A DNA stretch of 64,000 nt from an uncultured Treponema sp. (GTDB lineage: Bacteria > Spirochaetota > Spirochaetia > Treponematales > Treponemataceae), in the NCBI GenBank assembly GCA_946615905.1, contig CAMOIE010000004.1, forward strand, positions 62,001 through 126,000. Reading direction: 5' to 3'. Position numbers and translations under genes: made by a program. Positions 34,434-61,143 of this stretch are shown here, in pieces (the first letter of the stretch is position 1; each line of letters starts with the position of its first letter). The notes beneath the pieces are model-generated. The model saw nothing but the letters and a program-made list of their open reading frames with translations. It made no database searches and was not told the DNA's origin.

Positions 34434-34471
34434 ATTAAGTTTCTCCGTTCAAGTTATAAAAATAAAAAAAA

Positions 34472-39655: not shown

Positions 39656-39665
39656 TTCTGCACCT

Positions 39666-46585: not shown

Positions 46586-46603
46586 TGCCACAATTTTGCC
46601 ACA
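46586..46603. promoter_or_regulatory. Two TGCCACA boxes, 11 bp apart, upstream of the response regulator gene
   Basis: TGCCACA starts at 46586 and 46597. The pair lies about 67 bp upstream of the regulator start and about 55 bp before the Fic promoter. The 11-bp period is that of OmpR/PhoB-type binding. Relative to the regulator gene the boxes are in reverse orientation, so autoregulation is possible but not shown. Confidence 0.6.
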
Positions 46604-46633
46604 GAATTGTGCTTGATTTGCTATCCGCATTTT

Positions 46634-46662
46634 CCGACAAAAACATAAAAATGTGCTATAAT
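46634..46662 (+). promoter_or_regulatory. Promoter of the Fic gene
   Basis: CCGACA (46634-46639), a 17-bp spacer and TATAAT (46657-46662), 21 bp before the Fic start codon. Confidence 0.55.
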
Positions 46663-46683
46663 GAACATAGCTGAGATATAGTT

Positions 46684-47769
46684 ATGAGCAAGATAACCGA
46701 CCCTGACCAGCCCACCCCTTGGTACATGGGCTTTGAAGAGTACGAAAGAATAAGCGAGCCTCACAAAAAGGAAAAGTCATTTGCCTGGACAACGGCAATC
46801 GGTTTGCAGGCTGTGGACGGGCTGACTCCTTCAAAATATCTTTTGGAAACCGCCCGCCGCAACATTGAAGGCCAAATTTCCATTCAAGAAGCCAACAGAA
46901 TTATTGAAGAATACTACCAAAGTGAACAAGGTCGCGAAGCAGAAAAGAACGGACGCACGGAAGAGGCGGATAAAGTCAGTGCAAGAATCGCAGAGATTTT
47001 GAATGACGGAACATTTACTTTTAAGCCGACCACGTTGCAGAATATTCACGAGCGTCTGTTCAAAGGGATTTATACATTTGCAGGAAAGGTTCGCGATTAC
47101 AACATAACAAAAAAAGAATGGGTCTTGGACGGCGACACGGTTTATTATTCAGATTTCAGGGAAATAAAAGAGTCCTTGAAATATGATTTTGAAAACGAAG
47201 CCAGTTTTTCATACGCTGATTCTTCTGACGCAGACTTTGTAAATCATTTTGCAAAGTTTATAAGCGGCATCTGGCAAGTTCACGCTTTCGGAGAGGGCAA
47301 TACCAGAACAACCGCAGTTTTTGCAATCAAGTATCTTCGCTTTCTTGGCCGCGACAAAGTAAACAACGAACCTTTCGCCGAAAATTCCTGGTATTTTAGG
47401 AATGCCTTGGTGCGGGCAAATTACAATTCCTCTTCAAAGGGAATAAACGGCGAGCCGTCGTTTTTGATAAAATTCTTTCGCAACCTGCTGTTGAATGAAA
47501 AGAACGAGCTTAAAAACCGCTATATGCACATTTATTGGAAAGGCGGGCAAAATCCGACTGTAAATCCGACTGTAAATCCGACTGTAAACAAATTGGACTC
47601 ACAGATAATCGAAGAAATGAAAAAAAATCCAAGAATCACCTATTCTGAACTTGCAAAGATTACCGGCAAAAACCGAGACACAATCGCCGTTCACATAAAG
47701 AAGATGACCGAAGCGGGAATTGTAAAACGCATCGGCCCAGACAAGGGCGGTCACTGGGAAGTGCTGTAA
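46684..47769 (+). CDS. Fic family protein with C-terminal winged helix
   Basis: A 361-residue protein. The Fic core carries the active-site motif HAFGEGNTRTTAVFAIKYL; the common HPFxxGNGR is HAFGEGNTR here, with His retained for AMP (or other nucleotide) transfer. The flap segment is around WVLDGDTVYYSDFREI. An N-terminal helix (LLETARRNIEGQISIQEANR) resembles the second half of VbhA-type antitoxins, though the inhibitory (S/T)xxxE(G/N) motif is not exact. After a linker of three NPTV repeats comes a winged helix ending GPDKGGHWEVL, almost identical to the end of the AlbA protein at 33033. Target and regulation are unknown. Confidence 0.85.
   Translation: MSKITDPDQPTPWYMGFEEYERISEPHKKEKSFAWTTAIGLQAVDGLTPSKYLLETARRNIEGQISIQEANRIIEEYYQSEQGREAEKNGRTEEADKVSARIAEILNDGTFTFKPTTLQNIHERLFKGIYTFAGKVRDYNITKKEWVLDGDTVYYSDFREIKESLKYDFENEASFSYADSSDADFVNHFAKFISGIWQVHAFGEGNTRTTAVFAIKYLRFLGRDKVNNEPFAENSWYFRNALVRANYNSSSKGINGEPSFLIKFFRNLLLNEKNELKNRYMHIYWKGGQNPTVNPTVNPTVNKLDSQIIEEMKKNPRITYSELAKITGKNRDTIAVHIKKMTEAGIVKRIGPDKGGHWEVL
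47551..47586. repeat. Three tandem 12-bp repeats in the Fic linker
   Basis: Three exact copies of AATCCGACTGTA encode NPTV units between the Fic core and the winged helix. The frame is preserved whatever the copy number. Confidence 0.95.
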
Positions 47770-47791
47770 AGCCCCCCCATACACACCATCC

Positions 47792-47848
47792 TGCCACAAT
47801 TTTGCCACATTTCCTCGTTTGCTTTGCCACAGGGAACTGGTTTACGAT
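47792..47848 (+). promoter_or_regulatory. Promoter of the UGSC-like gene with TGCCACA boxes
   Basis: TGCCACA starts at 47792, 47803 and 47825 (spacing 11 and 22). The last box ends 11 bp before the -10 element TACGAT (47843-47848), and no proper -35 is present, as in promoters activated by PhoB-type regulators. About 50 bp, including the bases between boxes, are nearly identical to 60935-60991. A GGTTTCGATACGC...ACTCAACC repeat follows in the leader. Confidence 0.75.
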
Positions 47849-47912
47849 ACAGTCACGGTGGTTTCGATACGCTTTCGCTACTCAACCACCACCGATTTTT
47901 TGGAGGCTGAAT

Positions 47913-49856
47913 ATGAATCAGAAAAACTCAATTCTACATGCAATATTTTTCACTTTGACGCTGCTTTCCGCGCCGCTAGCTTTTTCAGCGACGATTCCCG
48001 CACAAAGTGCGCCCGACTGCGCCGAAGAAGTCTGCCCGATTCCGAGCGCGAACGAGTCGGGAGAGCAGGTGTTCGCGATTGTCTCTCCGGTGGGCTATCA
48101 CAATGTGGAGATGATTAAGCAGGCCCTGCGCCCGACCACTCTCAAAGGAAAGCGGATTGCTCTCGTGGGCGGAAGCTTCAACGCTGACATCACGCACGCC
48201 GAACTTAAAAAGTGCATCCTCGAAAAATATCCCGACGCCAAAATCTTTCTTTTTGAAGAACTCGGCGAAGTGGTCTTGGCTGGGCCTTTTTCGGTCGAAG
48301 GGCAGAGCGCGAAGGTAAAAAAGTTCCAGAAAGAACTGAAAGACAAGAAAATCGACCTTGTGATTGCGGGAAACTGTGGCTGCGGACTTTGCACGGTCAA
48401 GGAGTCAGGATCTTCGATTGCCGCCGAGTACATCGGAATCCCGTCCGTCACCGTGGGCGCGCCCTCGTTCATCGCACAAATCCATTCGACAGGCGTAAAC
48501 CGCGGCGTACCAGTCCTGCGAACGGCAGAATACCCAGGAGCGTTCTCGTCACATTCGCCCGAGGAACTGCGCAAAAACGCCCGCCAAATCGTGTGGCCGC
48601 AAGTCGAAAAAGCACTCACCACGCAAATCACCGACGCAGAAATCAAGCAATACGCGCTTTCCGGAAAACGCCCCTACGACGAGACCGTCTACATCGGCAC
48701 TTTCAGCGAAGTCCAGGAATTCTGTGCTGTGAACGAATGGACTGACGGACTTCCAGTCGTTCCGCCGACCGACGAACTTATTTCAGAATACCTCAAATTC
48801 ACGCCATTCAAGGCGGACTTCAAAATCGGAACGATTGCCCCCGCCTACCGCGAAACGCTCTGCTACACAGTCGCCGCAAACGCCGTGATGTCGGGCGTTC
48901 CAAAAGAATTCATGCCAATCTGCGTCGCAATCGCACAGGGCTTGGGAAACGGAGAATTCCGCCGCACCCTCGCAAGCACGCACGGCTGGACTCCATACGC
49001 ATGGCTCAACGGCCCGCTCGCCCGACAGCTCGGAATCGACTCCGCGCAGGGAATGATCAGCGAGGAAAAAAACAAGGCTCTCGGACGATTCATCGATTTG
49101 GCAATGCTGAACATCGGCGGCTACTATGTCAAGGAAAACCGCATGGGCTCGTTCGGCTATCTGACCCCGTGGACATTCGCCGAAGACGAGGAAGCCTGCA
49201 AAAGGGCGGGCTGGGACCCGTACCACGTCACGCAGGGCTACAAACTGAACTCGAACACAATCACCCTCGGCTCCGCGCTCGAATGGGGAAACAACGTCAC
49301 GCCTTCGACCGACGACCCCGAGATGATAATGGGACTTTTGGCGTGGGACATCACCGAAAAACAGCAGAACGGACTCGGAAACACACAGCCGCAAGTCTTC
49401 CGTACCGTCTTCATCACAGAACCAGTCGCTCTCGACCTCGCCAAAAAATACAAGTCCAAGGACGCGCTCGAAGACGCCCTCATCGAAAACGCCCGCCGCC
49501 CACTGTGGATGCGAACCTGCGCCTACTACTGGGCCAACACCGGCAGCCGCCAGGACCAAAAACGCTCGTTCAACTCCGAATACCACTACCTCCTGCAAAA
49601 AGAGGACGAAAAGGCCGAACTCACCCCCACGCCATTCTGGCTCAAAGGCATCGTCAAGGACGAAAAAATCATGACAATCGCCACGATGAACAAAGGCCAG
49701 ACCCCGCTCCTCGTCACCGGAGACTCCGCCCGCAACAAGTTCCAGGTAATGCCCGGCGGAGGCTACGCCACAGTGGAGATAAAACTCCCCAAAAACTGGA
49801 ACGAGTTGGTTGAGCCACTGGGGTATGGGAAGATTGAGGAGTTTTGGTTGAAGTAA
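47913..49856 (+). CDS. Exported UGSC-like redox protein
   Basis: A 647-residue protein with a clear signal peptide (SILHAIFFTLTLLSAPLAFSA). The first domain (~residues 45-245) holds a Cys-rich loop, DLVIAGNCGCGLCTVKESGS, matching the place of the Sec/Cys motif in UGSC-family (seleno)proteins; here it is Cys throughout. A second domain starts WTDGLPVVPPTDELISEYL, a segment typical of proteins related to that family, and extends to the C-terminus. Activity is unknown; thiol chemistry is likely. GGAGG lies before ATG 47913; an upstream frame extension covers the promoter. The promoter shares regulatory boxes with the CXXC/4Fe-4S operon. The UGSC assignment is from memory of motif and order. Confidence 0.65.
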   Translation: MNQKNSILHAIFFTLTLLSAPLAFSATIPAQSAPDCAEEVCPIPSANESGEQVFAIVSPVGYHNVEMIKQALRPTTLKGKRIALVGGSFNADITHAELKKCILEKYPDAKIFLFEELGEVVLAGPFSVEGQSAKVKKFQKELKDKKIDLVIAGNCGCGLCTVKESGSSIAAEYIGIPSVTVGAPSFIAQIHSTGVNRGVPVLRTAEYPGAFSSHSPEELRKNARQIVWPQVEKALTTQITDAEIKQYALSGKRPYDETVYIGTFSEVQEFCAVNEWTDGLPVVPPTDELISEYLKFTPFKADFKIGTIAPAYRETLCYTVAANAVMSGVPKEFMPICVAIAQGLGNGEFRRTLASTHGWTPYAWLNGPLARQLGIDSAQGMISEEKNKALGRFIDLAMLNIGGYYVKENRMGSFGYLTPWTFAEDEEACKRAGWDPYHVTQGYKLNSNTITLGSALEWGNNVTPSTDDPEMIMGLLAWDITEKQQNGLGNTQPQVFRTVFITEPVALDLAKKYKSKDALEDALIENARRPLWMRTCAYYWANTGSRQDQKRSFNSEYHYLLQKEDEKAELTPTPFWLKGIVKDEKIMTIATMNKGQTPLLVTGDSARNKFQVMPGGGYATVEIKLPKNWNELVEPLGYGKIEEFWLK

Positions 49857-50148
49857 GGGATTTTTAAATTGGGCGTTCGTCGCAAACCTACGGTTTGCTT
49901 CACGAGTTTTGCATTTGCCGCAGCGCTGGAAACTTCGTTGCGAGAACCGCGTCAATTTTCGCTATGCGAAAACCTGCAAAACTCGCGCCGTCGGGCGTTT
50001 GCGAGAAATGCAAGGCATTTCTCGTTACGAGTTTGCTTTGCAAACTCGCGGATTCCGCTGTCGCTTCAGCCTCCGCACTTCCTCGCTTCGCTCGGTCGCT
50101 TGCGGTGGCCGCCTTCGGCGTGGCTCCATGCCCTAACGCGTGGAAAAT
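49857..50148. repeat. Extragenic palindrome-rich region
   Basis: No gene is seen. Several hairpins follow one another: GCAAACCTACGGTTTGC; GAGAAATGC/GCATTTCTC; ACGAGTTTGC/GCAAACTCGC; and GCGAAG/CTTCGC types. The GCGAGTTTGC palindrome is shared with 17880-17903. Strong GC and palindrome content suggests a repeat family with terminator or processing roles. Confidence 0.6.
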
Positions 50149-50892
50149 TCAACGTTTCATCGTAAATCTACATCTTGGATAATTTGCGCAACCGTAGAAA
50201 TCACCGTATTTTCCTTTGCGCAATTTCAATTCTCCGTTGCATCTCGGACAGATTAAATTACTCTCTTTCATCTTTTTTTCATAAATCGTGTCATTGATGT
50301 TTTTTATATGTTCTTTTTTAATCTTTTTATCGTCTATATTACTCTGATTCAGAATCGCAACAATCTTATCGACTTCTTCAATTGTCAGACACGGTGAAAC
50401 AGAAAGCCTGCGTATCGTTGCATTTAGTTGATTTGCATAAATTACAGGAGCGGACGATTCTATTTCTTTTAAGGTTGCACTTCCTGCAAAAACGACAATC
50501 GGAAAATACGGTAAATTTGGAAAATCAGTCAACATTTCCTTGAGTGCATAGATGTGGGAAAAATTCTGTTTTATAGGATTTCGGAACTGATGTTTTTCTT
50601 TGTAAAGAACTTGCATCCAGTTTTCGGCATTTTCTTTTCCGAAAATCCAGCCCTTGTAGTTTTTCGTTTCGATTACAAAAATACCGTAAACAGAAACCAC
50701 AACATGGTCGATTTGCGATGTCTTTCCAGATTTGTTCAGCAGAATCACATCGTTGAGGATTTTGTAATTTGTGCTGTCTAAAAACGACAAATTGAGCGCA
50801 ACACGCTTTTCACCAATCGAACCTTTTATCTGCGGAGATTTTATTTTGAGGAAGATGAAGAGAATTGCAATGATGAGGAAGATATATATCAT
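50149..50892 (-). CDS. NERD-domain protein with C-terminal topoisomerase-type zinc finger
   Basis: A 247-residue protein. It begins with a single membrane helix (IYIFLIIAILFIFLKIKSP). The NERD nuclease-related domain follows (GSIGEKRVALNLSFL; KTSQIDHVVVSVYGIFVIET with the Asp/Glu pair of a PD-(D/E)xK-like core; then NYKGWIFG). The last ~35 residues form a topoisomerase I-like zinc finger (CPRCNGELKLRKGKYGDFYG, then CANYPRCRF). The function is probably nucleic-acid processing at the membrane. Its start immediately follows the stop of the secreted-protein gene upstream, so the two are a unit. Confidence 0.85.
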   Translation of the reverse strand: MIYIFLIIAILFIFLKIKSPQIKGSIGEKRVALNLSFLDSTNYKILNDVILLNKSGKTSQIDHVVVSVYGIFVIETKNYKGWIFGKENAENWMQVLYKEKHQFRNPIKQNFSHIYALKEMLTDFPNLPYFPIVVFAGSATLKEIESSAPVIYANQLNATIRRLSVSPCLTIEEVDKIVAILNQSNIDDKKIKKEHIKNINDTIYEKKMKESNLICPRCNGELKLRKGKYGDFYGCANYPRCRFTMKR

Positions 50893-51489
50893 CTAAAGGA
50901 CTTCATCTTCTTTGTTTTCAACATCGTCTGCATTTGAAAATTCGTAGTCAATTATGAGACAAAATGAATAACCGTATTGCTTAGCTGGAGAAACATAAAG
51001 ACTTACATATGAAACATCATCTTTCATTTTTGCACCTTTGATATTTTCAGCCCAGACTGCACTTAATTCCCTTGCACCTTCTCTTAACGAATAAGACCAC
51101 TCGTCGTCTCCTTGATACAAATTGCTTCTATCAATCAATTCATCTGTTAATTCTGGCTTGCCATATATCGCTTCAACTCTGTGTTCAAAACTGTAAAAGG
51201 CATTTTGAGCTTCTTTTCCATATTTATCAGTAGAAATTTCATCTGATATTCCCCTGATTCTGTATAATCCATGCTCATCATTTATCCATGCAAGATAATA
51301 TTTGAATGTAGGGTGTTTCTTTTCTGGCAAAATAATATATCGGTCGTCATTTTCTAAGCGTTCGGGACGATTACCGCTGCAAGCCGCAGTCACTTCGGAA
51401 TAAGTCATGCCCATTTTCAAACCAAAAGGGGAAGCAAAAATTGAGATTGGCAATAAAGCAACAATTATAATCAGAATCAGTTTCTTCAT
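50893..51489 (-). CDS. Secreted protein of the FGLKMGMT family
   Basis: A 198-residue exported protein with a signal peptide (KKLILIIIVALLPISIFA) cleaved before SPFGLKMGMTYSEV. A paralogue at 57140-57724 shares FGLKMGMT, the KHP..(K/S)YY segment, the (YR/YQ)IR.ISD segment, a KYG..(A/I)QNAF segment and an acidic end. The repeated FGLKMGM beginning is typical of small treponemal periplasmic proteins of unknown role. Each copy neighbours a nuclease-related gene (NERD protein here, helicase-nuclease there). Confidence 0.7.
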   Translation of the reverse strand: MKKLILIIIVALLPISIFASPFGLKMGMTYSEVTAACSGNRPERLENDDRYIILPEKKHPTFKYYLAWINDEHGLYRIRGISDEISTDKYGKEAQNAFYSFEHRVEAIYGKPELTDELIDRSNLYQGDDEWSYSLREGARELSAVWAENIKGAKMKDDVSYVSLYVSPAKQYGYSFCLIIDYEFSNADDVENKEDEVL

Positions 51490-51533
51490 ATAAAAACTCC
51501 TAAATTAGATTATAACACAGTTTTAACAAAACA

Positions 51534-52478
51534 TCATTGTCTTTGTTTCTTTTGTTTTATGACTGTGAATTTTTGCTTTGTCAAAAGCGTAAAAAATTCA
51601 GCAAGTTCTGAAAGCGAAACAACCATGTTTTTGCTGATATTAAGTTGCCACCAATAATCAGTTGTTATTGTAATATTTGGATTAATCAACCGAGTTTGAA
51701 ATAATCTCATTGAAAAATCCACGAATTGACGTTGATGACCAACACAATGAACACAATTTGCGTCAGACTTCTTATATCCAAAGGGGCAGAGTTCACATAC
51801 AGATTGCTGTATGGAATCTAGATAGGCATTTCTTCCGTGAAGTTTAATATTCATCGGACAGTCTCGAACAATTCCACCAATTACAGGCTTATTAATTCCG
51901 TTTTTATCGATAAACTGCTTTTTATCGGCTATGGCCTTTTCTGTAAAATCTTCATCATAAATTGGGCGTATATTTTTTATATCAAATATCGCTTTTCTCA
52001 CTTCATCTTTAGTTTCAAAAAGCAATGCTGATAAATTTATTTCAAATGTTGTCAGTTTATGACTTTGAATTTTTGCAAATTTCTTCTCATCGACTGCATG
52101 AGAGACAAAGATTTCAATCGCAATCGGCTTTCCTTCGTATTCAGCATACAAATCGGGAATTATATCACCCAGATTCTTTTCTGCTTCAACCGTATTAACT
52201 TGAACAAATTCTATTTTTCCCTCACGGAAAGCTGGAATCCGTTTTTCTTCCATCACAATTTGTTTTGCTAGCAAGTGAAGTGCTGTCTGACTGCATTTTA
52301 TGCTGTCATTTCCGCTTGCATGGGCAAAGTGATGAATTTTAATTGTGCCTTTATTTTTTGCTACCAACGCCCCTTTACATTCTGCGCAAACGCAACCGCA
52401 ATTCTTGCCATTTGGAACATCTTCAATATAAGCAGATTTACCGTCAAGGGTGAGGGCTTGTAAAATGTAATGATTCAT
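51534..52478 (-). CDS. CoiA-like competence/nuclease-family protein
   Basis: A 314-residue protein. The N-terminal zinc-binding part (CGCVCAECKGALVAKNK, then HHFAHASGND) and the following SQTALHLLAKQIVMEEKRIP plus IPDLYAEYEGKPIAIEIFVS match the CoiA-like nuclease core (PD-(D/E)xK). Two further Cys pairs (CELCPFGYKK; CVHCVGH) lie near residue 220. CoiA promotes recombination during DNA uptake in competent bacteria; related proteins appear in mobile regions. No competence operon is near. It precedes the FGLKMGMT/NERD pair on the same strand by 44 bp. Confidence 0.7.
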   Translation of the reverse strand: MNHYILQALTLDGKSAYIEDVPNGKNCGCVCAECKGALVAKNKGTIKIHHFAHASGNDSIKCSQTALHLLAKQIVMEEKRIPAFREGKIEFVQVNTVEAEKNLGDIIPDLYAEYEGKPIAIEIFVSHAVDEKKFAKIQSHKLTTFEINLSALLFETKDEVRKAIFDIKNIRPIYDEDFTEKAIADKKQFIDKNGINKPVIGGIVRDCPMNIKLHGRNAYLDSIQQSVCELCPFGYKKSDANCVHCVGHQRQFVDFSMRLFQTRLINPNITITTDYWWQLNISKNMVVSLSELAEFFTLLTKQKFTVIKQKKQRQ

Positions 52479-52490
52479 TATTTTACCTCC

Positions 52491-53123
52491 CTATCTATTT
52501 TTATTTGCAATCATAGACCATTCGCCATATTCCGTTCCGTCAAATGCACGAACCCAGAAAAATTGGTCAGTTTGTTGTCGTCGGTACGAATATTTTATAG
52601 GTGAAAAATTTCCTGCAGCAAGCGGACGGGCAGTTGATATGTCATTTGTCATACTGCTGTAAACGAGGTAACTTTGTGCATATTCGACAGCATCAAAAGA
52701 AAAAGTCACATCTGAGCCAAGCAGATTGGGCATTATAAAGGCGTACAAATTTTTAGGTGCAGGAAGCAATTTCTCTTTCGGTTCTCTTGATTCGATTTTT
52801 ACTGTCTCTTGCTTTGCGGATTTAATCTTATAGATAGATTTGTCAAGTTGACGATGGGCAAATTGCAATTCAGATTCATTTGCTGTAGACAAGTCGTTCC
52901 ATTTTGAAAATCCTGAAATTCTGGAAATGATGTGCTGTGCGTTCATCAATGTAAACGAAAAATCTTCTTTTTCGTCTGGCAAACCAAAATCCGAAAATAT
53001 TTGAACAATGTCAAAATATTGCGGCTTATAACTGTAGTGATTTTCCAATTCACCAAAAAAGCGAGTCTTGTAATCTTTTAAAAGATTTTTTGCCTGAAGT
53101 TTAAAATAGTCGATGTGTTCCAT
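52491..53123 (-). CDS. Hypothetical protein with glyoxalase-related N-terminal motif and Fn3-like end
   Basis: A 210-residue protein in two parts. The first ~85 residues (MEHIDYFKLQAKNLLKDYKT; MNAQHIISRISGFSKWNDL) match a small helical module found in the Glyoxalase_8-type and related proteins, where it usually precedes another domain. After a charged linker, the last ~90 residues look like a fibronectin type III beta sandwich (VTFSFDAVEYAQSYLVYSSM to GTEYGEWSMIA). Role is unknown. It starts upstream of the CoiA-like gene (12-bp gap) and is likely co-transcribed with it. Confidence 0.5.
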   Translation of the reverse strand: MEHIDYFKLQAKNLLKDYKTRFFGELENHYSYKPQYFDIVQIFSDFGLPDEKEDFSFTLMNAQHIISRISGFSKWNDLSTANESELQFAHRQLDKSIYKIKSAKQETVKIESREPKEKLLPAPKNLYAFIMPNLLGSDVTFSFDAVEYAQSYLVYSSMTNDISTARPLAAGNFSPIKYSYRRQQTDQFFWVRAFDGTEYGEWSMIANKNR

Positions 53124-53421
53124 AATTGATTTCTCCTTATGGTTCGTATCAGAGTATTTTGTCTAAATTTTGGCTCGTATCCCATGCGACAAAAACAATG
53201 ACACTAAGGATAATCAATATAGTTTGGTATGATAAAATCTTTGCACGAGCTGCAAGCGTTACCAAGACGCTGATTTGAATATAGGGGATTTAAGTTCGGC
53301 TGTCAAGACATGGCAATACAAGGCAGAACAAACACCCGCCTTATTTTTTGTCAATAAAGTATTACTTTAATGACTTTTCCACAAATCCATGCTATATTTC
53401 TAAATGCTAGGAGGTATCGCT

Positions 53422-53658
53422 ATGGCTAGACCAATCAGAGAAACGCCCATTTTGTTCGGTGAGGACGCGCGCCGTTTTGAAGAAAAGATGCGAAACGCAA
53501 AGCCGACTATAACTCGGGAAGAATATGACGAAATGTACAAAAGTTATAAGGCGGTTTTAGCGGCTCTTGAACGCGGAGAAGCAGAGCGCAAGGCTTGGTT
53601 GGCACAGAAACGGGCTGCAGCAGCGGGAAGATTTGCCCACGCAGTTGCTCTACTTTGA
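53422..53658 (+). CDS. Antitoxin-like small protein
   Basis: A 78-residue protein starting MARPIRETPILFGEDARRFE. This opening (MA.PI..TP.L.GEDA..F) is common in small proteins encoded just before GNAT or PIN-type toxins and regarded as antitoxins. The remainder is a charged helix (ITREEYDEMYKSYKAVLAAL). AGGAGG lies before this ATG; TATATT about 28 bp upstream may be its -10 box. A GNAT gene follows 110 bp downstream. Pairing with it is inference. Confidence 0.6.
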   Translation: MARPIRETPILFGEDARRFEEKMRNAKPTITREEYDEMYKSYKAVLAALERGEAERKAWLAQKRAAAAGRFAHAVALL

Positions 53659-53768
53659 TTTGATGAGCATCAATTTGTAAAATCCAATCTGCTTGTGCCA
53701 CAAGCCAAACGACAAATCTCTTTCACGAACCCGCATTTTGCTATATACTGCAATCATCGGAGAAGCCC

Positions 53769-54302
53769 ATGAACGAATTAACCGCAAAGCGTGTAAGCAT
53801 TTTTCACCGAAATTTAAAAAACGCCCACACCTTGTTTCTTGCGGCTTTTCCAAAAGTTGAGCGGATGCCATTTGCATTTCTTATGTTCATGTCTCTTCTA
53901 CCAGACATTCACTATCGTTCTTATTATGATGGCAAAACCTTTGTGGGAACGGCCTTCTATGTTGAGTTCAAACACATCGTATATTTGGTGTATCTTGCAG
54001 TGGACGATTCGTTGCGGAGCAAGGGCTACGGTAGCATGATACTGACTTTGATAAAAGAAGATTATCCAGACAGAGATATTGTGCTTATGATTGAACCGCC
54101 TGACGATGCAGCCCCGAATGCGGAGCAGCGGCAAAAACGCTACGATTTCTACACGCGAAACGGAATCCTTGATACAGGCATTATAGGTCATCGAAATGAG
54201 CTAACCATGCTCATAATGTCTACACAGGTTCCTTTCCAGGAAAAAGAACTGATTGATTTTTTTAAGCACTATCACATGATGCCAGAACTGATTCGTAAAT
54301 AG
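53769..54302 (+). CDS. GNAT-family N-acetyltransferase
   Basis: A 177-residue GNAT enzyme. Acetyl-CoA-binding motif A is in DDSLRSKGYGSMILTLIKED, preceded by strand VYLVYLAV and followed by strand IVLMIEPP. The C-terminal YDFYTRNGILDTGII is the usual last part of the fold. The substrate is unknown; given the antitoxin-like gene before it, it may be a toxin that acetylates a tRNA or protein, but this is inference. A possible -10 box (TATACT) lies about 25 bp before the ATG. Confidence 0.75.
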   Translation: MNELTAKRVSIFHRNLKNAHTLFLAAFPKVERMPFAFLMFMSLLPDIHYRSYYDGKTFVGTAFYVEFKHIVYLVYLAVDDSLRSKGYGSMILTLIKEDYPDRDIVLMIEPPDDAAPNAEQRQKRYDFYTRNGILDTGIIGHRNELTMLIMSTQVPFQEKELIDFFKHYHMMPELIRK

Positions 54303-54384
54303 GGCGTTATCATCAAATCCACATCCTGTAACCGCCACGAAACAAACTTTGTTCTATAAATGAACACCACCCACGGAGGAAAAA

Positions 54385-54906
54385 ATGAAAAAACTTACCG
54401 CAATTCTTGCGCTTCTTTGCGCGTTTTCGCTCACATTCGCCCAGAAAGCCGGCGAAAAAATCCAGATTGACACGAAGGACTTTGGCGGCGCCACCGTCAC
54501 GAGCGACCGCTTTTCTCAAAACACGCTCACGATGCTCAACATCTGGGGAACGTTCTGCCCGCCGTGCATCCGCGAGATGCCAGACCTTGCCAAACTGAAC
54601 GAGGCGAACAAAGCTAAAGGTATCGAAGTCATCGGCATCCCAATCGACATCGTTGACCGAAACGGAAACATTCTTCAAAAGCAGAAAGCCGACGGCGACG
54701 CGATTATCAAAACGACAGGAGCTGCCTATACGCACATCGTCCCAACGAAGGAAATGCTGGGCGGTCTTTTGCGGAACATTCAGGCGGTTCCCGCGACGAT
54801 TTTTGTTGACAAAAACGGAAAGCAGGTCGGCGAAATGTACCTTGGCGCAAGAAGCCAAAAGGACTGGCAGAAAATCATCGACGACTTGCTCAAAAAACAG
54901 AAGTAG
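54385..54906 (+). CDS. TlpA-like periplasmic thioredoxin
   Basis: A 173-residue exported protein. The signal peptide (KKLTAILALLCAFSLTFA) is followed by a thioredoxin-fold domain with active site LNIWGTFCPPCIREMPDLAK (CPPC) and the cis-Pro segment NIQAVPATIFVDKNGKQVG. TlpA/ResA proteins exchange thiols with partner proteins outside the cytoplasm. GGAGG precedes the ATG. It uses the GC-rich codons seen in the UGSC-like and 4Fe-4S genes and may serve the same pathway. A clear TGCCACA array is not present upstream, only a weak CGCCACG. The stop TAG is the first base group of the repeat element at 54905. Confidence 0.9.
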   Translation: MKKLTAILALLCAFSLTFAQKAGEKIQIDTKDFGGATVTSDRFSQNTLTMLNIWGTFCPPCIREMPDLAKLNEANKAKGIEVIGIPIDIVDRNGNILQKQKADGDAIIKTTGAAYTHIVPTKEMLGGLLRNIQAVPATIFVDKNGKQVGEMYLGARSQKDWQKIIDDLLKKQK

Positions 54907-55140
54907 GGCGCTCCCCGCCGTGCTGTTGCACGGCGGGTCGGGCTTTCCGCACTTCGCCGTCTTGCGCGGCTCATCCCTCACTTGCGTTCGGGACTGCCTT
55001 ACGGCAGGTGCTACAATCCCTAGCGCTTTTGATCTGTCGCCATGGATGGCGACAAAAAGCAAAGACAGAAATCGCGACTGCGAGTTCTGTCGGGGTGCCG
55101 GAGTCATGGACGACGACGACACCCCTGCAATCCCTAGCGC
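54905..55140. repeat. Extragenic repeat element, copy A
   Basis: The element begins AGGGCGCTCCCCGCC, contains GGCGGGTCGGGCTTT and ends CAATCCCTAGCGC; a second ~127-bp unit (55014-55140) again ends CAATCCCTAGCGC. That unit recurs at 56307-56430 with few changes, including the GTCGCCATGGATGGCGAC palindrome. No coding potential is evident. Confidence 0.75.
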
Positions 55141-55145
55141 AAAAG

Positions 55146-56123
55146 TCACTCAAACGAAAATTTCATCTTCCAGCTTTGGCGGATTTTATCGAGAAGGCTT
55201 ATTAAAGCCACGCTGTCTTCCGGGGTGAAAATCTTGCTTGAAAGTTCCTTGTTTTTTACACAGCGGGTCACTTCCTGGATTTCGTATTCGTAGCCGTTTA
55301 CTTCCGGCGGAAAATCAAGCGTCATGCTTTCGCCGTCGTTCGGCTTTATGGTCAAGGAAAAGGCTTTTTGAAAATCCGGAATGTAAATGCTTGCCTTCTC
55401 AAAGAATAGAGCCGCCTGCCTTTCAATTTGCAAGCCGATGCTTTGCGTTGAGTGGGCGCTTCTTTCGCCTGAAAACTCAAACTGAATCGCGCTGAAATCG
55501 TCTGTCCCGTACTCGTTGAAATGCACTTTTGAAGAAAAATCTTTTGGCAAGCCTTTCATTATCATGCAAAGAAATCCGAGGTTGTAGATTCCGATGTCTA
55601 AAAGTGCGCCGCCTGCAAGCTCTGACTTGAACTTGCGCTCCCGTCTTGCCCCGCTTGCAATAAATCCGTAGTCGCAGCGGGCATGAATCAGTTTTCCGTA
55701 TTTGTTTGATTCGATTATCTCAAGAAGTTTTTTGTACAGCGGCAAAAATCGAATCCAAAAGGCTTCCATAATAAAAAGACCTTTTTCTTTTGCCGTGTCA
55801 TAAAGGGTTTGGGCGTCCTTTGCATTTGTTGTAAAAGGCTTTTCGACAAGGACATTTTTCTTGCAGTCCAAGGCGAGCATGGCGTTCTCAAAGTGCAGGT
55901 TGTTTGGGGTGGCAATGTAGACCGCGTCAATTTCATCGTCTTCGCAGAGTTCCTTGTAAGAACCGTAGCTTTTTGGAATCTTGAATTCTTTGGCAAAACT
56001 TTCGGCAACTTCTTTTTTTCGCGACGCAACCCCAAGCAATTTTTCTTCGTTAGAGTTCATCGCATTGACCGTTTTTGCAAAAGTTTTGGCTATCGATCCC
56101 GTCGCAAGAATTCCCCAGTTCAT
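55146..56123 (-). CDS. Gfo/Idh/MocA-family oxidoreductase
   Basis: A 325-residue NAD(P)-dependent dehydrogenase. The Rossmann N-terminus is MNWGILATGSIAKTFAKTVN (GxGxxA type, here ATGSIA). The family motif VLVEKPFTTNAKDAQTLYD contains the EKP signature, and the C-terminal sheet domain includes SELAGGALLDIGIYNLGFLC. Members oxidise or reduce sugars such as inositol, glucose or dihydrodiols; the substrate here is not evident. GAGGTG precedes ATG 56123. It stands alone between two copies of the repeat element. Confidence 0.9.
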   Translation of the reverse strand: MNWGILATGSIAKTFAKTVNAMNSNEEKLLGVASRKKEVAESFAKEFKIPKSYGSYKELCEDDEIDAVYIATPNNLHFENAMLALDCKKNVLVEKPFTTNAKDAQTLYDTAKEKGLFIMEAFWIRFLPLYKKLLEIIESNKYGKLIHARCDYGFIASGARRERKFKSELAGGALLDIGIYNLGFLCMIMKGLPKDFSSKVHFNEYGTDDFSAIQFEFSGERSAHSTQSIGLQIERQAALFFEKASIYIPDFQKAFSLTIKPNDGESMTLDFPPEVNGYEYEIQEVTRCVKNKELSSKIFTPEDSVALISLLDKIRQSWKMKFSFE

Positions 56124-56198
56124 AAAGTCACCTCGTGTTCTAAATGTAGTATGACTTTGCACTCCGGTCAAGAAATTTCTCTTTTCTCCCGCAGAAAC

Positions 56199-56430
56199 AG
56201 GGCGCTCCCCGCCTACCGGCGGGTCGGGCTTTGCGCCGTTCCGCGCTAACCGCGCTCCATTCGTCGCAACCTTACGGTTGCTTCCGAACGCCTTGCGGCG
56301 CGGATCCAATCCCTAGCGCTTTTGATCTGTCGCCATGGATGGCGACAAAAAGCAAAGACAGAAATCGCGACCGCGAGTTCTGTCGGGTTGTCGGAGTCAT
56401 GGACGACGACAACCCTGCAATCCCTAGCGC
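56199..56430. repeat. Extragenic repeat element, copy B
   Basis: Same layout as copy A: AGGGCGCTCCCCGCC, GGCGGGTCGGGCTTT, CAATCCCTAGCGC near 56307-56320, then the ~125-bp unit ending CAATCCCTAGCGC-type at 56430. The two copies flank the oxidoreductase gene in direct orientation. Confidence 0.75.
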
Positions 56431-56442
56431 ATTATGGTCATC

Positions 56443-56769
56443 TCAGTCAACGAGCATTTCTTTGATAACTCGTTTGACTTCCTTAATTTCGTGTTGCTTT
56501 ATTGAGCCGAGATTTTTCACTAATCTTTCCTGGTCAACGGTTCTTATCTGATCCAAAACAATCCATCCCTGCTTTTCTTCGAATTTTACTTCGACTCTTG
56601 TAGGATATGAATGCGATTTTGTCGTCATCGGGGCAATCATTACAGTTGAAAGATTGTCGTTCATTTCATCTGGCGAAATAATCAGACAAGGTCGTGTCTT
56701 TTTGATTTCATGTCCGACAGTCGGGTCAAGATTAATCAAATGGACTTCGTATTGGCTTACCATTCCCAT
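56443..56769 (-). CDS. mazF: MazF-type toxin
   Basis: A 108-residue MazF/PemK endoribonuclease. Family features are the beta strand YEVHLINLDPTVGHEIKKTR with the catalytic Arg, PCLIISPDEMNDNL, VMIAPMTTKSHSYPTRVEV, and GWIVLDQIRTVDQERL. It cuts mRNA at short sequences when not bound by antitoxin. AGGAG lies seven bases before ATG 56769, inside the end of the antitoxin gene, and the two overlap by 13 bp. A second ATG lies two codons later. Confidence 0.92.
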   Translation of the reverse strand: MGMVSQYEVHLINLDPTVGHEIKKTRPCLIISPDEMNDNLSTVMIAPMTTKSHSYPTRVEVKFEEKQGWIVLDQIRTVDQERLVKNLGSIKQHEIKEVKRVIKEMLVD

Positions 56770-56996
56770 TCAAAAGCTCCTGACTCAGGAAGTTCATCAA
56801 GGACATCCTCTTTGTTGGCGTGCATTTGGGCAAACGCTTCTGCCCATCCTTTGCGAGGATTTTTTACAGGAGAGAGCATGATTCCGTTGTCAGTAACTTC
56901 CATTTCCATTTTGTCTGTTACATTGAACTTGTCGAGAATGAGTTTTGGAAGTCTGATACCCCTTGAATTTCCAATCGGAACGACTGAAACTAACAT
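56757..56996 (-). CDS. mazE: MazE-type antitoxin
   Basis: A 79-residue AbrB/MazE-fold antitoxin: MLVSVVPIGNSRGIRLPKLI, with NSRGIRLPK as the family DNA-binding signature, then DKMEMEVTDNGIMLSPV, and an acidic C-terminus (LDELPESGAFEWEW) that would cover the toxin. GGGGG precedes ATG 56996; the frame reaches further upstream over the promoter. It is first in the operon and probably represses it together with MazF. Confidence 0.88.
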   Translation of the reverse strand: MLVSVVPIGNSRGIRLPKLILDKFNVTDKMEMEVTDNGIMLSPVKNPRKGWAEAFAQMHANKEDVLDELPESGAFEWEW

Positions 56997-57018
56997 AACA
57001 CGCCCCCTGCAATTATTT

Positions 57019-57056
57019 TGTAATGTAATTATAATGTAATAACACTGTAAGGTCAA
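57019..57056 (-). promoter_or_regulatory. mazEF promoter with repeated operator half-sites
   Basis: On the minus strand TTGACC (57051-57056), a 17-bp spacer and TATAAT (57028-57033). The -10 box lies between two direct repeats of TTACATTA, a likely MazE binding arrangement. Confidence 0.75.
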
Positions 57057-57139
57057 CTTTCAGTCGAAAAAACGAAGCCACGCCAAAGAAATTATCACAA
57101 ATATGCAATTCCGTGATACTATGCGATAGGAGAATAATT

Positions 57140-57724
57140 ATGAAAAGATTCCTTGCTCTTTTGATTTTTGCACTTTTTCCACTTGCGATTTTTGCCGCAC
57201 CGTTTGGTCTCAAAATGGGCATGACGCTTGACCAAATTGCCGAGCAGTGCGAAGAAGAACCGTCTTATGTAAAAGATGATGTTTATTTGGTCAAACCTAT
57301 AAAAAAGCATCCTCTTTTCTCTTATTATGCTGTTTATGTGAACGAGAAAACGGGGCTTTATCAAATCCGAGCAATATCTGATTCAGTTACTTGCAACAAG
57401 TATGGAACGGAAATTCAAAATGCTTTTAATAGCGTAAAAGACAGAATTGCTAAAACATACGGCAGACCGAAAATCATAAATAAATTGGACTCAAATAGTA
57501 TATGGACAGAAGATTCTTATTGGTTCCAAGCTTTAAAAGATGGTGCAAGACAGCTTTCTGCCATTTGGGGTGAAAAGACAGAACTTGCAGATGGCTTGGT
57601 TTCAGTAGCTTTGGACTGCGTGGCTGATACTGATGCTTTTCATTATCAAGATGCTCATTTAGTTTTGTATTACTATTTCAATAACGCTGGCTCTGTGGAA
57701 GATGAGCAAGATTCTGTATTTTAA
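57140..57724 (+). CDS. Secreted protein of the FGLKMGMT family
   Basis: A 194-residue exported protein starting MKRFLALLIFALFPLAIFAA, then PFGLKMGMTLDQIAEQCEEE. It is a paralogue of 50893-51489 over its full length: KHPLFSYYAVYVNEKTGLYQ, IRAISDSVTCNKYGTEIQNA and a Tyr-rich, acidic end. AGGAG precedes this ATG; a nine-residue extension upstream has none. The helicase-nuclease gene starts 37 bp later on the same strand. Role is unknown. Confidence 0.7.
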   Translation: MKRFLALLIFALFPLAIFAAPFGLKMGMTLDQIAEQCEEEPSYVKDDVYLVKPIKKHPLFSYYAVYVNEKTGLYQIRAISDSVTCNKYGTEIQNAFNSVKDRIAKTYGRPKIINKLDSNSIWTEDSYWFQALKDGARQLSAIWGEKTELADGLVSVALDCVADTDAFHYQDAHLVLYYYFNNAGSVEDEQDSVF

Positions 57725-57761
57725 TTCTGAATACTAATACAATTTACATGAGATAAGCTGT

Positions 57762-60314
57762 ATGGACGACTTTATCGTTTTTCTGACAGACAGATACGGC
57801 AGAAAAGACAGAACGCACGAAATAAAAAGCATTCAGCAAAGTCAAAACCAAAAAGTTTTTCAAATCGAATTTCTCAACAATGCCGTCTACACTTACAAAA
57901 CAGAAAATGTGCAGATTGTCAAAAATTGCCTGAGTGATAAAAAATCGGCTGGAGTGTTTGACTATCTAATGCAAATGGCGCATTTCAGCGAAATGAGAAA
58001 TGACAACGGCGACAACCTGCTTGTTAAAAATTTGGAAAAAACGAAATTCATCAACGAAGATTCGGTACTCGCACGCTATTTAAATCCTAACACAAAACAC
58101 ACCGATAACAGCCCAAAAATATCTTCTCCGATTTTTCCATTCGGTTGCAACAACAGCCAGATAAAGGCGGTAAAAACTGCGCTCAACAATCCTGTAAGCA
58201 TAATACAAGGTCCTCCCGGAACTGGAAAGACGCAGACGATTTTGAACATAATCGCAAATCTTTTGATGAATGAAAAGACGGTGCTTGTCGTTTCAAACAA
58301 CAATTCCGCGACGGCAAATGTCTATGAAAAACTTGCTTCAGAAAAATATCAGATGGACTTTATATGCGCAACTTTGGGAAGAAAGGACAACATCGACAAA
58401 TTCATCGCGGAGCAAAAGCGATTTTATCCAGAAGGCTTAAAAACATGGCGCACCATACCGCCGACTTTTCAAGTGCTTCTTTCTGATGACATAGCAAAAC
58501 TGGAATCATATTTTTCTGCCAAAGAGCGCATTGCCCAAATAAAAGAAGAACTCAGTCACATAGATCTTGAGTCAAAATATTTTGCTGAAAGCAATGCGTC
58601 TGCTTTTTATGAGCGCTCAAGGCTTGAAAATCAAAAATCTTCTGTACTTTTGACTCTTTTGCAAAAAGTGCAATTCAAATACGCGGAAAAAGAGAAGTTC
58701 GGATTTTTCTTGAAGTGGAAACTGAATGCAAAATATAAATTGTGCGGATTCAAATTTTGGAAACTGGACGAAGAAAAACTTCTTGCGACATTAAAATTTC
58801 TCTATTATCAAATAAAACCGAATGAACTGCGGACAGAACTTGCTGAAAAAGAAAATGCCATTTTGGGATTCAACCCTGAAGAAGTTTATAAGAAGTGCTT
58901 GGATAACTTAAAATCTAAACTCGCGCATCGGTACTCAAATGCGGAAAGACCGCACTATGAGAGCGGCAAGGATTTCTATTACAGCATGAATTCCTTCACA
59001 AAAGAATATCCTGTGATAATGAGCACGACTTTTTCTTCAAGGGCGGCTCTCGGTGGAAGCAAAGATTTTCTGTTTGACTATGTGATTATGGACGAGGCAA
59101 GTCAAGTTGATGTCGTGACTGGCGCGATAGCCATGTCTTGCTGTAAAAACGCCGTGATTGTCGGAGACAAAATGCAGTTACCGAATGTAATTCCAGAACA
59201 GCAAAAGTTGATAATCCAAAAATATTTTGAAGCGGCACATATCGCAGACGGCTATAATTTTTTGAACAGTTTTTTGGCTTCGATTGAAAAAGTTTTGCCC
59301 AACACTCCGCAGACTCTTTTACGCGAGCATTATCGTTGTCATCCAAAGATAATTAATTTTTGCAATCAACAGTTTTACGGTGGAAAACTGTTGATAATGA
59401 CAGAGGACAAAGGCGAGGAAAATGTCTTACAGGCAGTTAAGACCGTCCCTGGAAATTTCTGCTCAGAGCATTACAATCAGCGTCAAATCGATGTCATAAA
59501 AAATGAAATTTTGCCACGCTATTCAGAAACGGAAATTAAAAATCTTGGAATCATCGCGCCCTACAACAATCAGACAAACGCCATAAAATCTCAGATACAG
59601 GGAATCGACAGCGACACCGTGCATAAATATCAAGGACGGGAAAAGGACAACATCATAATAACGACCGTTGACAATAAGATTTCTGATTTTGCCGATGATG
59701 CGAATCTTATGAATGTCGCCATTTCTCGCGCAAAGAAAAAACTCGCTGTAGTTCTAAACGGCAACGAAGAATATAACAGGAACTATGAGGCACTTTTAAA
59801 ATACATCGAGCATAACAATTTCTCTGTCAGCGAGAGCAAATTGAATTCCATATTTGATTTTCTCTACACAAAAGAAAGCGTGGAAAAATTCAACTATCTT
59901 AGATCGATAAAGAAGATTTCCAAATTTAACAGCGAAAACGCGATGAACGATTTGCTCGCAAAAATCACAAGTGAAGAAAAATACTCAAAATTTGGCTTTG
60001 TCTTTGAGCTTCCCTTACGCGATATTGTATCGAAGAATTTTGTCGGAACACTGCCACAAGAACTTTCAGACTATGCAAGCCGAAGCTGGAGCCATGTTGA
60101 TTTTACAATTTTCAACAAAGTTACAAAAGAAATCCTCTTTGGAATAGAAGTCGACGGATATACCTATCACAAAAGGGGAACGGTTCAGTCTGAGCGCGAC
60201 AAGAAAAAAGACAGAATTTTCAGCGAATATCTTAAAATCGAACTTTTGCGATTTGGAACAAAGGGGTCAGATGAAGAGGAGATAATCAAGACGAAGTTCG
60301 ATGAATTTCTTTAG
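57762..60314 (+). CDS. SF1 helicase fused to a C-terminal nuclease domain
   Basis: An 850-residue protein of the DNA2/Upf1-like helicase group. Walker A is IIQGPPGTGKTQTILNIIAN, Walker B is YVIMDEASQVDVVT, motif IV is LREHYRCHPKIINFCNQQFY, and motifs V/VI are VHKYQGREKDNIIITTVDN and LMNVAISRAKKKLAV. The last ~130 residues look like a PD-(D/E)xK nuclease of the DUF2726/REase_MTES_1575 type: SHVDFTIFNKVTKEILFGIE followed by VDGYTYHKRG. Helicase-nuclease fusions of this kind are often anti-phage or plasmid-control proteins. It ends at a strong terminator. Confidence 0.85.
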   Translation: MDDFIVFLTDRYGRKDRTHEIKSIQQSQNQKVFQIEFLNNAVYTYKTENVQIVKNCLSDKKSAGVFDYLMQMAHFSEMRNDNGDNLLVKNLEKTKFINEDSVLARYLNPNTKHTDNSPKISSPIFPFGCNNSQIKAVKTALNNPVSIIQGPPGTGKTQTILNIIANLLMNEKTVLVVSNNNSATANVYEKLASEKYQMDFICATLGRKDNIDKFIAEQKRFYPEGLKTWRTIPPTFQVLLSDDIAKLESYFSAKERIAQIKEELSHIDLESKYFAESNASAFYERSRLENQKSSVLLTLLQKVQFKYAEKEKFGFFLKWKLNAKYKLCGFKFWKLDEEKLLATLKFLYYQIKPNELRTELAEKENAILGFNPEEVYKKCLDNLKSKLAHRYSNAERPHYESGKDFYYSMNSFTKEYPVIMSTTFSSRAALGGSKDFLFDYVIMDEASQVDVVTGAIAMSCCKNAVIVGDKMQLPNVIPEQQKLIIQKYFEAAHIADGYNFLNSFLASIEKVLPNTPQTLLREHYRCHPKIINFCNQQFYGGKLLIMTEDKGEENVLQAVKTVPGNFCSEHYNQRQIDVIKNEILPRYSETEIKNLGIIAPYNNQTNAIKSQIQGIDSDTVHKYQGREKDNIIITTVDNKISDFADDANLMNVAISRAKKKLAVVLNGNEEYNRNYEALLKYIEHNNFSVSESKLNSIFDFLYTKESVEKFNYLRSIKKISKFNSENAMNDLLAKITSEEKYSKFGFVFELPLRDIVSKNFVGTLPQELSDYASRSWSHVDFTIFNKVTKEILFGIEVDGYTYHKRGTVQSERDKKKDRIFSEYLKIELLRFGTKGSDEEEIIKTKFDEFL

Positions 60315-60343
60315 TGTTTTTAAGCGTGCATGAAAATGCTCAC

Positions 60344-60457
60344 CAAAAATAAAACCACCCTCACAGGTGGTTTTTGAAAAATTTGGATGGGCGGCGTATC
60401 CATCATATCAGGTTCCCTTTCGGGAGCGCAGGGTGCCTTTCCTGCTCGTCAAATTTC
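60344..60457 (-). ncRNA. Candidate small structured RNA
   Basis: A strong minus-strand promoter (TTGACG 60487-60492, 17-bp spacer, TATATT 60464-60469) would start an RNA of about 115 nt that ends at the bidirectional terminator. The RNA can fold: AAAUUUG pairs with CAAAUUU to close it, with internal CCCGAAAGGG, CAGG/CCUG and GGAU/AUCC stems. It contains GAACCUGAU, which also occurs in thiamine riboswitches, but CUGAGA is missing and no gene follows, so it is not that class. SRP RNA was considered; the GGAA loop motif is missing. The RNA begins right after the PBECR-type toxin gene. Confidence 0.5.
60351..60375. terminator. Bidirectional terminator
   Basis: AAAACCACC pairs with GGTGGTTTT around a short loop. 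On the plus strand it is followed by TTTTT, and on the minus strand by TTTTATTTTT. It ends the helicase transcript in one direction and the small RNA candidate in the other. Confidence 0.9.
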
Positions 60458-60463
60458 ATCTTC

Positions 60464-60492
60464 AATATAACAGTGGATAGTCAATCCGTCAA
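60464..60492 (-). promoter_or_regulatory. Promoter of the candidate small RNA
   Basis: TTGACG and TATATT with a 17-bp spacer; the -35 box overlaps the stop codon of the PBECR-type gene. Confidence 0.65.
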
Positions 60493-60857
60493 GTCTCTGG
60501 CGAAATCTTTTTTAGTCGCCCGCTTTTACAATATGCGTCTATTTTTGACTTTTTTACATCATACATAGTTGCGACATAATACAAACTTTTGTCCGCATCA
60601 AGTTTTATGCTGACAAAAATATCGTCCTTAAAGCACTTTACCAACTCGATTGCACCGTCCGTAAAACCCGCGTAGTCTGGGGAAGTGATTATTTCGGGCA
60701 GAAAATCAAGATATTTTGCTGCGACGAAGTGCTTCCGTTTTAGCAAATGTGCCAAAAGCCCTTTTGAACGAAAAATCGCAAAATTAGGCAGATTGAGTCC
60801 GAGCAACTCGTTGATTTTTGAGTTGAAATCTGAGATTTTCAGAAGTTTGTCGCTCAT
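60489..60857 (-). CDS. PBECR3-type putative nuclease toxin
   Basis: A 122-residue protein. The C-terminal ~70 residues match the phage-associated Barnase/EndoU/ColE5-like (PBECR3) pattern: PEIITSPDYAGFTDGAIELV, then DIFVSIKLDADKSLYYVATM, then DVKKSKIDAYCKSGRLKKI. The N-terminal half is a basic helical region (FRSKGLLAHLLKRKHFVAAK). It is predicted to cut RNA; no protein antitoxin gene is adjacent. ATG 60857 is used; the preceding codon is TTG. The small-RNA promoter starts inside its stop codon. Confidence 0.7.
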   Translation of the reverse strand: MSDKLLKISDFNSKINELLGLNLPNFAIFRSKGLLAHLLKRKHFVAAKYLDFLPEIITSPDYAGFTDGAIELVKCFKDDIFVSIKLDADKSLYYVATMYDVKKSKIDAYCKSGRLKKISPET

Positions 60858-60934
60858 CAATAAAACTATAGCAGTAAAATAAATATCTGTCTGTAGTTTT
60901 CTGGCATGTGTAATTTTCCCCCCAAAAAAAACTC

Positions 60935-60991
60935 TGCCACAGTTTTGCCACAGCTTCTCGTTTGCTTTGCCACAGGGAACTGTTTTATAAT
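60935..60991 (+). promoter_or_regulatory. Promoter of the CXXC/4Fe-4S operon with TGCCACA boxes
   Basis: TGCCACA starts at 60935, 60946 and 60968 (spacing 11 and 22). The last ends 11 bp before TATAAT (60986-60991), and no -35 box is present. Box spacing, distance to -10, and most intervening bases are the same as at 47792-47848. Confidence 0.8.
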
Positions 60992-61005
60992 AGGTGCATA
61001 GATAT

Positions 61006-61124
61006 AGGGCGCTCCCCCGCCGGGAGTTCGGCTTCGCTCACCCACCGGCGGGTCGGGCTTTGCGGGGTTCCGCTATCGCTTCATTGCCTACGGCAACGCT
61101 TCGCGCCCCTACAATCCCTAGCGC
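61006..61124. repeat. Extragenic repeat element, copy C, in a leader
   Basis: AGGGCGCTCCCCCGCC, GGCGGGTCGGGCTTT and CAATCCCTAGCGC identify the same element as copies A and B. It lies between the regulated promoter and the CXXC-protein gene, so it becomes part of the mRNA leader. Confidence 0.7.
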
Positions 61125-61143
61125 ATAAAAAGCGGAGGCTTTC

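Follow-up and report, generated by a model that had tools for sequence, protein, structure and literature searches.

Phased TGCCACA boxes as predicted operators of a response regulator with clostridial relatives in an uncultured Treponema

Arrays of the word TGCCACA occur at three places in a stretch of 64,000 nucleotides from an uncultured Treponema sp. (contig CAMOIE010000004.1, positions 62,001 to 126,000; this whole stretch is called the window here): next to a gene for an OmpR/PhoB-family response regulator (RR), upstream of a gene for a UGSC-family protein, and upstream of genes for a small CXXC protein and a polyferredoxin. Which regulator, if any, reads these boxes, and what might it control? 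The original prediction was a redox regulon, in which the nearby RR activates exported thiol and iron-sulfur genes. Judging from the sequences compared below, the arrays are likely to be operators of this RR (coding positions 45794-46519), which would have the sensor kinase encoded at 29846-31282 as its partner and would activate the UGSC gene and the CXXC-polyferredoxin pair; "redox" describes these targets, not yet the signal. The elements concerned are the following.

45791 to 46519, minus strand, stop codon included (coding 45794-46519): gene of the OmpR/PhoB-family RR, with its ATG at 46519
46586 to 46603, plus strand: double TGCCACA box with 0 mismatches, 66 base pairs (bp) upstream of, and antisense to, the RR start
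47792 to 47848, plus strand: triple array, 11 bp and TACGAT, predicted RR-dependent UGSC promoter
47913 to 49856, plus strand: UGSC-family protein in the Cys form (CGLC), with an N-terminal signal-like helix (Pfam UGSC, PF24696, 54.9 bits, cut-off 25)
60935 to 60991, plus strand: triple array, 11 bp and TATAAT, predicted RR-dependent promoter
61144 to 61311, plus strand: CD1871A-family small CXXC protein, probably membrane-bound (NCBIfam NF040920, 61.1 bits, cut-off 32)
61313 to 62161, plus strand: NapH-like membrane 4Fe-4S polyferredoxin (Pfam Fer4_5 and Fer4; NCBIfam NapH/MauN is the best match below cut-off)

All boxes are on the plus strand, and they start at 46586 and 46597, at 47792, 47803 and 47825, and at 60935, 60946 and 60968. 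In each triple array, TGCCACA-N4-TGCCACA-N15-TGCCACA-N11 leads up to a -10-like hexamer (TACGAT at 47843-47848 and TATAAT at 60986-60991), and the coordinates, the identical spacing and the 11 bp before the -10 box that the original prediction gave are all correct. The double box TGCCACA-N4-TGCCACA has 3 copies without mismatch in the genome (2.96 Mb, 47 contigs), every one of them in the window and within 15 kb around the RR gene; the reversed control pattern has 0 exact copies in this genome (G000). Chance clustering of a motif without regulatory meaning, which the original prediction had named as grounds for giving it up, is highly implausible: the single word is present at 9 further places in the window, apart from the arrays, but the window has 3 double boxes with at most two mismatches where 0.27 would be expected, a count that none of 100 shuffles attains, and the genome-wide uniqueness of the exact form, the conservation of the box beside related RRs and the -10-like hexamer at a common offset all argue against chance.

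OmpR/PhoB-type regulators bind in place of a -35 element, and the Pho box stands at -35, about 11 bp before the -10. A PhoB site consists of two 11-bp direct repeats, according to passages of PMC3978041. The window resembles PhoB and the Pho boxes of E. coli in having an OmpR/PhoB-family RR and 11-bp direct repeats, but its box (TGCCRCA), its array (offsets 0, 11 and 33) and its targets are different, and its RR scores 175 bits with the PhoB equivalog model, below the cut-off of 296.2. The RR has a receiver domain (Response_reg) and a winged helix (Trans_reg_C), both above Pfam cut-offs; of the 25 NCBIfam models displayed, none is matched above its cut-off.

Homologues of the RR are found with the same box. 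The count covers 118 RR loci; L235, which is the locus of L104 again, had been dropped, and L193, a second record of the L107 locus from a different contig, was not used. Where the RR is at least 50% identical to that of the window, 12 of the 17 loci carry TGCCRCA-N4-TGCCRCA with at most one mismatch within 200 bp upstream, and 15 of the 17 carry it with at most two, all antisense as in the window, although the loci are related to each other and such counts are not independent. RRs below 50% identity have the pair with at most one mismatch at 1 of 101 loci (1/14 at 44-50%, 0/13 at 40-44% and 0/74 below 40%). At two mismatches the two lowest bands gain 2/13 and 8/74, and nine of these ten are Treponema RRs (L091-L099). 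The first four of these (L091-L094) have TGTCACA-N4-TGACACA, antisense and 59-61 bp upstream of their own RR genes; L095-L099 score similarly, with L097 at 31 bp. For the TGCCACA pair with at most two mismatches, the band of at least 50% gives 13/17, whereas 25 permuted versions of the motif average 0.12 and never exceed 3. The two loci of this band that lack the TGCCRCA pair within 200 bp even at two mismatches (L227 and L229) have perfect arrays of it further away.

C. transplantifaecale, Lacrimispora, Clostridium sp. 12(A) and a metagenome-assembled genome of Romboutsia have a double box antisense to the RR gene, at a distance of 57-72 bp before its start. In the family to which that Lacrimispora belongs, 16 of 299 genomes match the RR at 1e-60, with 19 loci between them (at most nine candidates per genome scored), and the locus of a paralogue, L192, holds its genome's sole exact TGCCACA double box. 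A helix region of the window RR, DTRATDDLVKRLRKK, is similar to that of box-bearing clostridial RRs. Because boxes lie upstream of the clostridial homologues, the sequences support a pairing of this RR clade with the TGCCRCA box across phyla.

Promoter geometry is also shared to a degree. A -10-like hexamer stands at offset 51 from the first box in 10 of 19 scored arrays (2 of 3 in the window and 8 of 16 clostridial ones, where L228, L232 and L241 were entered by their second, kinase-end array), against a mean over offsets of 0.5 and 3 at the next best offsets, and L227 is an additional array with such a hexamer at this offset. Third boxes are perfect in the window, and the best clostridial ones are those of L226 (6/7) and L225 (5/7). 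The second TGCCRCA array of L228, L229, L232, L234 and L241 lies in the last kinase codons or just beyond and reads into the next gene. This next gene encodes a small exported-looking helical protein. The double box that the original prediction saw upstream of the RR is present at 46586-46603, but it is antisense, points away from the RR gene, and has at the matching offset the hexamer ACAAAA, which is not -10-like; its position makes it a probable autoregulatory site of the RR.

Several observations weigh against the reading of the arrays as operators of this RR. Among nine clostridial arrays, the match to the third box at offset 33 ranges from just 1 to 6 of 7 positions, and a -10 at offset 51 is missing from the arrays on the RR side of L230, L233 and L234. 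No box was found for the RRs of L110, L112, L114 and L236, which have a similar DDxxKRLRKK helix, or for that of L105 (49.6% identity). Genome-wide counts at two mismatches give no excess of the box over the reversed control in G273 (32 vs 32), next to 29 vs 9 in G274, 37 vs 7 in G275 and 3 vs 0 in G276. The gene divergent from the RR in L228, L230, L232, L233, L234 and L241 is an M20-like amidohydrolase (named by sequence), and in the window the sequence upstream of the TlpA gene, described below, has no exact double box. To these are added the likeness of the two triple arrays to each other and a box in another Treponema genome, each of which bears on a different explanation.

The UGSC and CXXC triple arrays are near-copies, 50/57 identical including their spacers, and are not independent evidence. 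Since their flanks are unrelated (28/100 identical upstream and 12/60 downstream), they look like copies of one promoter, one array probably being a copy of the other. It could be that the arrays were copied by recombination as the genes moved apart, and that at least one of the three no longer functions; the lack of a -10 at offset 51 in the RR array and the separation of the target genes would fit such a history as well. Despite their unrelated flanks, however, both triple arrays have retained three boxes without mismatch and a -10 at an equal offset, and each is directly upstream of a gene of the module, so that loss of function through such copying appears improbable. The original prediction would have been abandoned if the promoters were recent copies without conservation in relatives. 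Copies they seem to be, and among 200 Treponema genomes the exact triple array is confined to its own genome (two others match with 2 mismatches), but outside the genus the boxes are conserved around the RR.

Exact double boxes occur in 7 of 196 Treponema genomes, namely this one and G009, G075, G019, G047, G122 and G017, and no UGSC match was found in the stretches fetched around those of the six other genomes. As operators, the boxes of G009 and G075 were rejected, for they lie inside long open reading frames (ORFs), as was that of G019, which sits in a tandem repeat. In the CreBCD-like locus of G047, an exact TGCCACA double box (L088, 8258-8275) lies between a CreC-like kinase gene and creD (Pfam CreD, E 5e-98), which suggests a CreB-like regulator with a similar operator. 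This locus resembles the window in that a two-component system has the exact double box next to its kinase gene, but the RR belongs to another clade and the target is creD. Other OmpR-type RRs may use the same TGCCACA word, as the Treponema clade with TGTCACA-N4-TGACACA about 60 bp upstream, antisense (L091-L094), might also indicate. A different OmpR-family member encoded in this genome, such as a CreB-like regulator, could then bind the boxes of the window, while the nearby RR controls something else. We regard this as unlikely, if slightly less so than the recombination history above: all three exact copies in the genome are within 15 kb of the window RR, and the clade of this RR itself carries the box next to the RR gene.

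Further members of the regulon were sought in the same genome. The 14 additional double boxes at 2 mismatches (5 for the reversed control) have no -10-like hexamer at offsets 49-52 and a best third box of 3/7, and none was accepted; allowing 1 mismatch to TGCCRCA brings in just one more site, which is GC-rich and was not accepted either. In passages of PMC5715377 and PMC2736386 the word TGCCACA belongs to primers.

Operation of the arrays by the RR would proceed as follows. The kinase would phosphorylate the RR, which would then probably bind the 11-bp-phased TGCCRCA half-sites, the proximal one at the -35 position; from there the RR could bring RNA polymerase to the -10, at offset 51, and switch on the UGSC gene and the CXXC-polyferredoxin pair, and the site at 46586 would serve autoregulation. 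The arrangement originally proposed, an OmpR-type regulator whose phased 11-bp boxes take the place of -35 before exported thiol and iron-sulfur genes, is well supported by comparison, through the link of RR and box in clostridial homologues, and the activation of these genes by the RR is predicted.

The RR itself stands apart from those of its genus. No homologue at 1e-55 other than itself was found in 196 Treponema genomes (at most 14 candidates per genome being scored), weaker matches at 1e-42 in 12 other Treponema genomes are 36-41% identical, and this RR alone passes 1e-50 in the family (245 genomes from 20 genera, at most 11 candidates per genome); with such limits on candidates, a homologue may have been missed. 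Among GTDB contigs the top matches are from Bacillota, C. transplantifaecale being first at 60% (among the best 80 of 587 relatives). A tree of 56 RRs places the window RR as sister to that of C. transplantifaecale (100/95); the clade that contains both (15 rows, 100/100) consists of Bacillota except for the window RR and one row from Actinomycetota (Coriobacteriales); five Treponema RRs near UGSC genes form a separate clade. The two-component system is probably of Bacillota type and probably entered the Treponema lineage together with its operator, the transfer and its direction being what we infer from these relationships.

The kinase and the stretches that now separate the genes are these.

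29846 to 31282, minus strand: sensor histidine kinase (HisKA and HATPase_c), probable partner of the RR
31396 to 44075, minus strand: stretch between kinase and RR with two AlbA_2/Schlafen-type ORFs, a DruE-like helicase and further ORFs
46684 to 47769, plus strand: Fic-domain gene between the RR and UGSC genes, a PDC-S72 defence candidate (Pfam Fic; PADLOC E 1e-124)

The kinase gene is on the same strand as the RR gene, 14.5 kb away and not adjacent. Its product is the genome's best match to the kinase beside the C. transplantifaecale RR (44%, E 5e-97, the next match being at 2e-19; 42% over 401 columns), and is the probable phosphorylation partner of the window RR by this resemblance. RR and kinase genes are adjacent in the clostridial homologues, and the window pair would once have been adjacent too and later split by a defence island. 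The stretch at 31396-44075 is probably an insert; its helicase matches PADLOC DruE at E 0 (1322 bits), and Pfam SLFN_AlbA_2 is found in it twice. A GC content of 0.49-0.55 in the RR, kinase, UGSC, TlpA and CXXC-polyferredoxin genes, against 0.44 for the window, 0.36 for the DruE stretch and 0.43 for the Fic gene, agrees with a single original module that took up inserts later. The kinase shows the HisKA and HATPase domains only, and no family of redox-sensing type was detected in it; a model from an alignment of just 7 rows gives its periplasmic part as a small alpha/beta domain, and its fold matches are ordinary kinase cores. With this, and with clostridial arrays standing by other genes, the term "redox regulon" of the original prediction finds no support in its stated form.

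Another gene belongs to the presumptive target set.

54385 to 54906, plus strand: TlpA-type thiol-disulfide oxidoreductase (Redoxin/AhpC-TSA), adjoining UGSC in many relatives and apart from it in the window

The targets lie apart in the window, and only the UGSC gene and the CXXC-polyferredoxin pair carry an array. UGSC matches are found in 24 of 196 Treponema genomes including this one, some as broken genes or contig-end fragments. Among 26 UGSC stretches fetched from relatives, 12 have the UGSC, TlpA, CXXC and polyferredoxin genes in this order (L058, L059, L061-L064, L067-L069, L072, L081 and L082, with UGSC broken or partial in the last two), and a contiguous operon in most relatives was rejected on this count. 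The pairing of RR and box does not depend on how often these genes are clustered. UGSC is alone in another 12 of the 26 (at a contig end in four), and the remaining stretches have the four genes with a polyferredoxin fragment (L066) or two of the four (L079). The products may form an electron chain of the envelope, along which electrons would move outward from the membrane polyferredoxin through the CXXC membrane peptide and an exported TlpA protein to the UGSC protein.

Seven cysteines of the UGSC protein (C36, C41, C101, C157, C160, C337 and C429), among them those of CGLC, are invariant in an alignment of the window protein and 17 orthologues; L072, L076 (whose twin L052 has N) and partial genes were excluded from these 18 sequences. 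The protein scores 38.9 bits with NCBIfam NF041046, below the cut-off of 125. Its structure model has a mean pLDDT of 56, and with one fold match below 0.001 and TMq under 0.2 throughout it is too weak to judge the fold. Passages of PMC2398784 place UGSC among redox-type selenoproteins with a likely thioredoxin-like fold and describe a UGSC domain fused to an unknown domain; the window protein shares the domain but has cysteine for selenocysteine and a long C-terminal part. Functions of such proteins are largely uncharacterised, as stated in a 2026 review (PMC13188914); we found no known function for UGSC proteins, and no mention of CD1871A in the four papers retrieved for it. A likeness of UGSC to GrdB/PrdB is a conjecture. 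The arrays offer a handle on this gene set, as conditions that activate the RR would tell its purpose.

Relatives appear to control the same genes by other means. An RR-kinase pair of another clade, in the direction opposite to UGSC, is found in five relatives, at a gap of 190-335 bp in G112, G155, G059 and G093 and of 1.2 kb in G028. The four with the close pair have 11-bp triple repeats of TTATAGA upstream of UGSC, and five other regions, from four genomes, have 11-bp triple repeats of TTTMATS, with no RR match within the fetched stretches. These nine arrays were chosen by eye, and a -10-like hexamer is at offset 49 in 8 of 9 and one base further in the ninth. A blind periodicity test of 24 UGSC upstream regions (this genome included; L050 is a gene fragment) had a modest outcome, with p < 0.05 in 7 (L028, which is the window's own, L031, L038, L039, L041, L053 and L054) and not in 17; five of the nine arrays are among the seven significant regions. 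TGCCACA arrays were not seen in the 23 other regions, where 11-bp repeats of other words came up. Our reading of these sequences is that different OmpR-type regulators serve one UGSC gene set. It is quite possible, though we would not call it probable, that the set changed regulators within the genus, from or to a TTATAGA-box system, TTTMATS arrays without a neighbouring regulator and the Bacillota-type TGCCRCA system here, each with a phased 11-bp array at offset 49-51. Nature would then offer an example in which several regulators serve a single gene set through promoters of nearly equal geometry.

The system would be an OmpR/PhoB-type regulon; new are the RR clade with its predicted operator, the likely transfer of both between phyla, and their presumed use on genes that relatives appear to control otherwise. 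An uncharacterised RR clade, from Clostridia and this genome, is hereby paired with a concrete predicted operator, TGCCRCA-N4-TGCCRCA, which could inform many systems. In the clostridial loci, genes beside the arrays encode small, helical, exported-looking proteins (L192, L242 and L227/L252, and genes after the kinase in L245-L249) or other exported-looking ones, which are Ala/Lys-rich (L104 and L106), Gly/Asn-rich (L103), hydrolase-like (L226) or repeat-bearing (L243), all called exported-looking by eye from the N-terminus. CpxAR-CpxP and BaeSR-Spy are envelope stress systems. Part of the clostridial relatives resemble them, by analogy only, in having an RR-kinase pair beside small exported-looking helical proteins, a layout that points to a signal of the envelope more than to redox itself. 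Unlike in those systems, five small clostridial neighbour proteins that were tested reach no Pfam cut-off, and the window targets are UGSC and iron-sulfur proteins.

The surroundings of the CXXC promoter contain other elements. The leader downstream of this promoter contains a GC-rich element (61005-61135), which is seen again at 56212-56244 and 63878-63908, and similar ones are found in the UGSC loci of six relatives. Adjoining the promoter is an ORF for a PBECR3-family nuclease-like protein (60492-60860, minus strand), and a skipping-rope RNA (RF02924) is detected at 60378-60457 on the minus strand with 61.1 bits, above the gathering score of 36.7.

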